Shown: positions 55,938 through 64,000 of the stretch, piece after piece | How positions within the stretch are numbered: the stretch's first letter is position 1 | Layout of the letters: each line of letters opens with the position of its first letter | Assembly (NCBI GenBank): GCA_033239005.1 | Contig: BSQZ01000105.1 | Span: 1,183,501 to 1,247,500 of the forward strand | DNA from: Lamellibrachia satsuma | Taxonomy: Eukaryota; Annelida; Polychaeta; Sabellida; Siboglinidae | DNA: 64,000 bases | Reading direction: 5' to 3' | Position numbers and translations under genes: made by a program | Notes under the pieces: generated by a model | Databases searched by the model: none | What the model was told of the DNA's origin: nothing | Seen by the model: the letters and a program-made list of their open reading frames with translations, nothing else

Positions 55938-56015
55938 GAGGGAGAAGAGTCATGATGCTAGTTCATCATCTTCTTGTCTTCGTGGTGCTGATGGTGGGAT
56001 CTTCGACAGCGTCAC
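55938..56015 (+). CDS. Gene B exon 1b: start codon and signal peptide
   Basis: Acceptor ttggtttcag, 14 nt leader, ATG at 55952, a second ATG directly after. 64 coding nt encode [20 protein letters not shown] plus S, a signal peptide. Donor GCGTCAC|gtaact, phase 1. Same coding length and phase as gene A. Confidence 0.87.
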
Positions 56016-59000
56016 GTAACTACATTCACAGTCATATTACTGACAAAGAGACACATCTCGGCACTTACATATGAACACACACACACACACACACACACAC
56101 ACACACACACACACACACACACACACACACACACACACACACACACACACACACACACACACACACACACACACACACACACACACACACACACACACAC
56201 ACACACACACACACACACACACACACACACACACACACACACACACACACACACACACACACACACACACACACACACACACACACACACACACACACAC
56301 AAACACAGTTACCACAATACATCAGTTATTGTTATGACATATCGTTGCAGTTTCGTCGAATGGAACAGCCGGGAATCCGAATGGAACCACCAATGGGACG
56401 GGTCAGTTTCAAGATGTATTTATCGGTTGAACTACTAATGGTGTTATTTTACCTGTGTCATAAAAATGCTCATTATTTCTGCTATGTTTCTTCTGTGTAC
56501 CAAGGCCGACGTTTCTATTCATGTAACATAAATGTTGCGGAAATTATCTCACATCTGGGAAGGCGTAAAGTTATGACCAACCTTTTTTCAATGTGGCATT
56601 TGGTAATGTTAATTTTCAAAAATGTATTGAATATATCGTGATGAGTAGAACAAAACCAATATTTCTTTGCAGAAACAGAAGGTGTTACCGTAGGTAGCAC
56701 ATGTAGTTTTGTTGCATACAACTGTGATTGTTGTAATAATATCGTCGTTGTGTTTAGTCACGTGCCCACCGCTAAGATGCCTGCGGTGCAGTTCAGGGTT
56801 CCGCAACGTCGTCCTGAGGGACTCGAACCGCTGCCGCGTGTGCAAATGCAGAAGTTTGTGCAAGGTTCGTTGTTTTCTCAAACAGATTTCTTTTTGGTGT
56901 GAGAAACATTCACATTAGTACATGTGTGGCCTACACTTGTTGTATTTAACATATGTGTTTTTTCTCGATTTGCTTCGTTATGTGTAAAATGAGGTGGATA
57001 TTGAAAAGATTGAGAAAATAATTTCGCAAACCGGACACTTAGAATATGTTGAACACTACAATGAATGTCATGGGTTGACTTGTTACGCGTTATTTACAAA
57101 ACATTTGACATTGTATAAACATATTGAGTTATTTTCTTTAACATGTAATATTTCAGAACTACAAATGTCCTCCTGGAAACACGTGTGTCTTGAAGAAATT
57201 TTATGCTGGCATGAGAAGAATGAGGCCGACTTGTGTAGGTCGGTATACGAACTGGATACATTTGGTTTACTTGTTGCTAAACCATTATTCTACCACCGCA
57301 TGATACGTGCGAAGCCGATTTGCACAGGTCGGTTTTGAATGCTTAATTGGTTTGTTATTCTGTTTCACCAACGTTTGTTGCAGAAATGTGTTGTATGTTA
57401 TTTTTAATGTATATGTAAATAATATCATAATTTGCAATCGTAGCGTGATAGGGTTCTATTATAAGAAATTTATCGGACTTGCGAATGTAGAAGGACGAAC
57501 CATAGCAAAGTCGTGTATGAATTTAGTTCTATTAATATAATTCCGAAGTCCCACCGATCCACCATTTGCATAATGCATCGTTTATAGTGATGAAATATAT
57601 AATGTTGTAGTTTTATCGAATGGAACAACCGTGAATCCGAATGGAACCACCAATGGAACGGGTGAGTGGCATAATATATTTATAGTTTGAACTGTTAAAA
57701 CAGTTATGTATTGTATACATACAACGACAGATCACTTCTGCTACGTGTCTTCTTTGTATCAAAGTCGACTTTTCATTGCTGTGATGACAGACGTGTTGTG
57801 AAGATTAACCCAAATTTGTCACGGCCACCCTTTCTTTAATGAGTCAGTCTGTAATGTTAACTTTCAAAATATAATTTGTGCGTGTGCCTGCCTGCGTTCG
57901 TGAGTGCGTGCGTGCCTGAGTGTGTGTATGTGTTTCCAAGACAAAAGAGAATCCAGTATGGTTTTACTATATTACTTGGCATCCAAAATGCACTAATGAT
58001 AAAAGTAGGCATAGCAAATTAACATTAGCTGTATACAACTATTATCGTTTATCCAGTGATATCGTCGTTGTGTTTAGGCACGTGCCCGCCGCTCAGATGT
58101 CTGCGGTGCAGTTCGGGGTACCGGAATGTCTTCCTGACGGACTCTAACGGCTGTCGCGTGTGCAAATGCAGAAGTTTGTGCGAGGTTCGTTGTTTTATCT
58201 AACATATTCATTCACAAGACAATTGGTGTACGCGTCTTTTTACAAGCGTGCTTTTTTTGTTTGATTACTGCAGTTTACTGTCACTTATATAACTGGAAAA
58301 TAACGCAAACTGCACAATTCAACGTCGTCTAATGGGTAGCAGTAAACATATGACCCTAGTTTACAATCATTAAGTTGCTATGCAAAAAATATTTACGTAT
58401 TCATTTCAGTCCATTTAACCTGTAATATTTCAGACCTTCAGGTGTTCTCGAGGACGTACGTGTGTCTTGAAGAGATTTTATAGAAGAATGAGACCGACTT
58501 GTGTAGGTATGTATAAGAACTACATGCATATGATTTGTCTGTTGATAAACCCTTAGTCGTAGTTTTCATGCATGACAAGATGCAATTTGGACATGTCGGT
58601 TTATAATGCTTAATTTATTCGTTTGCATTTTTCAAAATATAAACTCTAATTTATGACATATTGTTAATATATACGTAATAGCTCACTAAAGCGTCAATGC
58701 CAAGACTCACAGTTACCTTAACAACACATATTCACAAAACAGAATTTCCGCAGTTTTTTGCGTGGTCGATCGGATCGCTGGTTTCTTCTTGCACCGTCAG
58801 TCCCTCCTCTAATTCCCCTCCCTCTCTTCCTCTCTCCCTCTCTCCATCTCTCCCTCTCACTCACACACTAATTTAATCACACGCTCATTCACACGCACAC
58901 GCACACACACAAACGCACGCACACGCCCAAACACACACTCACACTCACTAATACACACACACACACACACACACACACACACACACACACACTCACCCGC

Positions 59001-63987: not shown

Positions 63988-64000
63988 GTTCGCTGTCTTA

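Follow-up and report, generated by a model that had tools for sequence, protein, structure and literature searches.

The window analysed here, a 64,000-nucleotide stretch of Lamellibrachia satsuma DNA, ends in a gene built from repeated exon cassettes (the array gene), and carries a further gene with a related module on its minus strand (gene 2; Table 1). In the array gene a signal-type exon (55952-56015) is followed on the plus strand by 17 more exons up to 63987, comprising 6 linkers, 6 first module exons and 5 second module exons. These fall into six half-units (A1, B1, A2, B2, A3 and B3), each running from a linker exon of 51 nt through a first module exon of 107 nt to a second module exon of 82 nt (A) or 73 nt (B), with B3 cut by the end of the window. 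A preliminary description had reported three consecutive units of 2.86-2.94 kb, and the spacing of the units was indeed found to be 2937-2947 and 2856 nt, the third unit being incomplete; that the array runs off the window is likewise borne out, B3 being interrupted after its first module exon.

The joined frame of all 18 exons, the signal exon included, is open over 468 codons, in agreement with the earlier account of exons that keep frame and splice sites. The patterns with which exons were located required every exon to be preceded by AG and followed by GT, and the splice ends are thus a condition of the search. However, tblastn run without these patterns returned the identical set of places, one for the signal exon, six each for linkers and first module exons and five for second module exons, and therefore no copy was missed through the AG/GT demand. 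All five complete cassettes, of 240 or 231 nt each, are phase 1 at both entry and exit, so that gain or loss of a cassette keeps the frame, and the description of the cassettes as self-contained holds. Like the (AC)n tract before linker A1 (Table 1), CA-rich tracts stand ahead of linker A2 (58890-59244) and of linker A3 (61835-62100), where one unit gives way to the next. A 21-bp tandem repeat in 7 copies (55264-55413) falls in what is presumably the first intron of the gene.

Table 1. Positions of the exons and associated features of the two genes within the window
Feature	Position	Strand	Basis
Candidate promoter, TATA-like box (weak; TATA-like strings are common in the window)	54991..54998	+	sequence read
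Candidate untranslated first exon, ending CTCAG/GTAAG (start approximate)	55020..55079	+	sequence read, inference
Signal-peptide exon beginning with a short 5' UTR; ATG at 55952, phase 1 at its 3' end	55938..56015	+	signal by eye
(AC)n tract preceding linker A1	56075..56307	.	sequence
Linker exon A1, three NGT sequons	56351..56401	+	pattern search
Module exon 1 A1, antistasin-like half	56758..56864	+	pattern search, Pfam
Module exon 2 A1, FOLN-like half	57157..57238	+	pattern search, Pfam
Linker exon B1	57611..57661	+	pattern search
Module exon 1 B1	58078..58184	+	pattern search
Module exon 2 B1	58434..58506	+	pattern search
Linker exon A2	59288..59338	+	pattern search
Module exon 1 A2	59704..59810	+	pattern search
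Module exon 2 A2	60103..60184	+	pattern search
Linker exon B2	60557..60607	+	pattern search
Module exon 1 B2	61025..61131	+	pattern search
Module exon 2 B2	61379..61451	+	pattern search
Linker exon A3	62144..62194	+	pattern search
Module exon 1 A3	62560..62666	+	pattern search
Module exon 2 A3	62959..63040	+	pattern search
Linker exon B3	63413..63463	+	pattern search
Module exon 1 B3; array goes on past the window	63881..63987	+	pattern search
Related gene 2, without linker exon	15461..19880	-	exon model anchored by hand
Gene 2 signal exon	19880-19817	-	hand model
Gene 2 module exons, phases as in array modules	19093-18951 and 18599-18497	-	hand model
Gene 2 Thr/Pro-rich exon	17278-17144	-	hand model
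Gene 2 acidic last exon, with 69-nt repeats	16347-15461	-	hand model

Elsewhere in the window lie two retroelements. One (3143-7152, plus strand) has an ORF at 5227-7152 with matches to reverse-transcriptase RNase H and to integrase families, and an ORF at 3143-4834 (plus strand) that looks gag-like by eye; the other (38606-41274, minus strand) has an RVT_1 match at 38606-40201 and an ORF at 40795-41274 (minus strand), endonuclease-like by eye. Neither the gag-like nor the endonuclease-like ORF matched a Pfam family with an E-value of 1e-5 or lower. A pure (GCA)59 trinucleotide tract occupies 614-791. Two sequences, 20180-20290 and 17500-17600 (-), appear by eye to be tRNA-like and SINE-like, with GGTTCGA-like motifs; ARAGORN called no tRNA.

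Domain matches and relatives of the modules

Each array module contains ten cysteines and each linker three NGT sequons (18 across the 6 linkers), and the protein encoded within the window has a net charge of +69 over 468 aa. It had been proposed that no named gene fits this architecture, with a comparison of the joined protein against Pfam HMMs as a check, and that comparison speaks against the claim. The joined protein matches Antistasin (PF02822) with 55.5 bits (7.9e-15; cut-off 21.2), a score that is a sum over the repeats, and FOLN (PF09289) with 27.8 bits (2.9e-06; cut-off 21.1). Scored singly, module A reaches 21.1 for Antistasin, just below the cut-off, and module B 21.5; FOLN is absent from the Pfam listing for single array modules. 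That summed repeat scores are generous is shown by two families of little plausibility for which the joined protein likewise exceeds the cut-off: Pr_beta_C (27, with a cut-off of 25 and an E-value, 2.9e-06, equal to that of FOLN) and B-block_TFIIIC (23.5 against 22). We take both for chance matches added up over the repeats.

FOLN is one half of the modules of follistatin, SPARC and agrin. The array modules resemble that half in their C-x4-C-x5-C spacing and in the Pfam match of the joined protein, but the best FOLN stretch spans 12 of the 22 positions in the profile, and the Pfam listing of the array protein at E up to 5 contains no Kazal domain, in which respect the protein is not follistatin-like. 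The FOLN-like half is assigned tentatively, and more weakly than the antistasin-like half, in part from the cysteine spacing and from the UniRef name of a relative (P0004, below).

The gene 2 protein, as modelled, has 443 aa, with five copies of ELKPEEIP in its acidic tail, and while its module carries a charge of +11 the whole protein carries -145. The module shares its ten-cysteine order with the array modules and aligns to module A with a BLASTP value of 2e-13 (a two-sequence comparison); none of 5000 shuffles equalled this alignment, whether the cysteines were held fixed or left free. A profile built solely from A and B found the second module exon of gene 2 (E 0.001), the first exon not being among the 14 matches listed. 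No Pfam family was found for the gene 2 protein at E up to 5.

Further relatives were found in Ridgeia piscesae, a siboglinid tubeworm, where four gene models (NP493_316g01008, g01009, g02002 and g02106; P0002-P0005), all numbered NP493_316, lie on a 387,703-bp contig. P0002 is 65% identical to the module query across 80% of its length; P0004, whose UniRef name begins 'Follistatin-like domain', has three complete ten-cysteine modules, and P0003 has one. A first module exon with intron-derived flanks is present in P0001, which comes from an ENA contig of 107,984 bp. The Ridgeia matches by themselves would point to a siboglinid as the probable source of the window. P0003 (NP493_316g01009) has four linkers, of 16 residues, near-identical to those of the array; the linkers of P0004, in contrast, are Thr/Pro-rich, the second-module loops of P0004 and P0005 are longer than in the array, and two of the P0004 modules are just mildly basic (+3 and +5). 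In a Pfam scan of five Ridgeia and ENA relatives none reached the Antistasin or FOLN cut-off: nothing matched P0004-P0006 up to an E-value of 0.1; P0002 (FOLN score 16.3) and P0003 remained below the cut-offs. AlphaFold models of the Ridgeia relatives are of low confidence, with no significant match to solved folds.

The Ridgeia models are unnamed or partly wrong. In P0003 the linkers run directly into second-module exons in another frame, the first-module exons being skipped. Among 15 exon frames compared, this one scored best for B (equalled by 0 of 2000 shuffles) and for A (by 20 of 2000), and it is the frame that skipping of the first-module exons would produce. Because the module is broken by it, this arrangement is probably a faulty gene prediction rather than true exon skipping. 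The public annotation of the NP493_316g01009 locus may need revision.

Divergence among the copies

In the six complete A/B pairs the exons differ at 31-32 of 231 sites (13-14%) and the introns at 408-419 of 956-957 aligned sites (43-44%), with 464-561 gap columns besides; in the three pairs that include the cut copy B3, 17-18 of 158 exon sites and 124-126 of 355 intron sites differ. The exon dN/dS is 0.25-0.33 for the complete pairs and 0.16-0.20 for the B3 pairs, and for A2/B2, the sole pair given this test, dS is 0.386 and dN 0.095 (Fisher p 0.0005). When 32 substitutions were placed at random in 20,000 simulated trials, the frame and all ten cysteines were spared in 0.5%. Exons so much more alike than introns, together with the low dN/dS, argue for selection on the protein, and judged by these comparisons the A/B exons are under purifying selection.

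The units themselves diverge far less. The introns of A1 and A2 differ at 21 of 1020 sites and those of B1 and B2 at 32 of 1355; between A2 and A3 there are 0 differences in 240 exon sites and 7 in 1029 intron sites, and the introns of B2 and B3 differ at 5 of 430. On this sequence evidence A and B are old copies of one another and the A+B units recent copies, and since the units are near-identical, the three do not count as independent evidence. Among copies of one half-unit 7 codons vary, 3 synonymously and 4 nonsynonymously, numbers too small to reveal selection in one direction or the other. The CA-rich tracts between the units hint that unequal exchange may have taken place there.

Cysteine order and probable role

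Excerpts of PMC12838937 give the leech antistasin-type pattern as C-X4-C-X5-C-X4,6-C-X-C-X4,5-C-X3,4-C-X9,10-C-X2,3-C. This pattern matches none of eight proteins, four of which (array, gene 2, P0003 and P0004) have a complete module. If the halves are put in reverse order, the resulting pattern matches all ten complete modules (5 in the array, 3 in P0004, 1 each in P0003 and gene 2); having been derived from these very sequences, it is descriptive. A looser leech-order pattern, read across the linker, fits at 5 places in the array and at one each in P0004 and P0005, and at none in gene 2. Given that gene 2 has a single module without such a fit, the sequences favour a reading in which the two cysteine halves that pair would belong to one module and not lie on either side of a linker. 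The array modules are like antistasin, hirustasin and leech CRA/MCRA in having ten cysteines per module and a core that Pfam scores for Antistasin close to its cut-off, and unlike the leech family in the opposite order of their halves within a module, a shorter loop, and one spacing of 14 as against 9-10.

The loop position is where leech inhibitors bear their reactive site. In the array this putative reactive loop is two residues long and reads LR in all six modules, as against the 3-4 residues of the leech pattern; in gene 2 it is PP, and in Ridgeia QR, PQ, MP, VR, HQV or HQIV, two modules of P0004 having loops of 3 and 4 residues. As the loop varies among relatives, a scaffold fits better than a conserved inhibitory site. 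The array protein might nonetheless be a multi-headed serine protease inhibitor, each module presenting a C-LR-C loop and repetition providing avidity, in defence or in the control of endogenous proteases. The Pfam Antistasin match and the identity of the loop across the array are consistent with this, and the literature describes antistasin-like proteins as inhibitors of serine proteases (excerpts of PMC12838937 among other sources). However, given the short loop, the failure of the leech ten-cysteine pattern in all four proteins with a complete module, and the loop's variation in gene 2 and in Ridgeia (notwithstanding the longer loops of P0004), we regard inhibition as the less likely reading, though a serious one and the main rival.

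Proteins with repeated antistasin-type domains are known from other annelids. The leech Theromyzon has a cocoon membrane protein, reportedly that of Mason et al. 2004/2006. According to the passages available of PMC12838937 it has six antistasin+EGF repeats, which makes it a secreted annelid protein whose repeats join an antistasin-like part to a second domain, the nearest described plan to the one predicted for the array; compared by description, it is unlike the array in that the array's second domain is FOLN-like and its linkers carry NGT sequons. In the same passages, oligochaetes and a leech are said to have antistasin forms of three or more domains. Antistasin domains are also noted, in excerpts of the respective papers, in limpet shell matrix (PMC3374290, PMC4094399), in limpet adhesive (PMC7333891) and in sea-star footprint proteins (PMC9382459), and an excerpt of the Paraescarpia paper reports serine-type endopeptidase inhibitors and a trypsin-inhibitor-like cysteine-rich protein in the tube proteome (PMC8476170). 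The word antistasin is absent from the main text of that paper and of the Ridgeia genome paper (PMC9921365), and the available passages of these two tubeworm genome papers do not name the array protein. In the literature searches made, no paper was found that mentions antistasin together with FOLN or with Siboglinidae, and antistasin with tubeworm led to a limpet paper only. With multi-domain antistasin proteins already described in annelids, the array is a variation on a known annelid theme, and the preliminary view of it as an undescribed system has to be given up, as has the view that it lacks named kin, the related Ridgeia models including one with a UniRef name. Its interpretation as a secreted repeat-cassette gene fares better, a cassette gene being supported by the conservation of the exons, by their phases and by the relatives found in a separate assembly, with secretion predicted from a signal recognised by eye.

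By analogy with the leech cocoon protein, an extracellular structural role appears the most likely. The reading we prefer, and to which we would give about an even chance, is that the array is a functional gene for a secreted, basic, N-glycosylated repeat protein with a structural or polyanion-binding role, formed by an old A/B duplication and recent duplication of units. Such a protein would resemble beads on a string, a signal peptide being followed by ten-cysteine modules, each an antistasin-like half and a FOLN-like half, joined by NGT linkers; it would be strongly basic, probably N-glycosylated, and a disulfide-stabilised structural or polyanion-binding part of extracellular material such as tube, cuticle or mucus. 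The A/B pair would stem from the older duplication, and entire A+B units would have been copied later, perhaps through unequal exchange between the CA-rich boundary tracts.

Two other readings are improbable in our judgement. The first, a variable secreted defence protein in which cassette copy number and splicing create diversity between individuals, would accord with the very recent change in copy number implied by near-identical units, with phase-1 cassettes that tolerate skipping, and with P0003, which could stem from skipping; but the seven varying codons indicate selection in neither direction and the A/B divergence bears the mark of purifying selection. The second, somewhat more doubtful still, is a two-component charge-driven matrix (a coacervate or polyanion-crosslinked gel) in tube or glue, in which two products of one locus, the polybasic, disulfide-rich, glycosylated array and the polyacidic gene 2 protein, would meet and array length would be tuned by copy number; it is prompted by the opposite charges of the two proteins (+69 and -145), and the mild charge of the two P0004 modules counts against it. 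That units 2 and 3 are alleles assembled in tandem, or that the array is decaying and its copies not expressed, we consider very improbable, for although the A2/A3 differences are in the range of ordinary heterozygosity, the introns of units 1 and 2 differ by about 2%, the CA tracts are unequal in length, the A/B exons appear to be under purifying selection, and four linker copies recur in a Ridgeia gene model from a separate assembly.

If the array is expressed, then on the preferred reading of a structural repeat protein an unnamed repeat-protein family would join the probable secreted proteins of chemosynthetic tubeworms, with an antistasin/FOLN-like module, its cysteine order unlike that of the leech inhibitors, that has spread recently as a frame-neutral exon cassette. 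The locus bears on cassette copy number between individuals, and on structural as against inhibitory antistasin modules in annelids.
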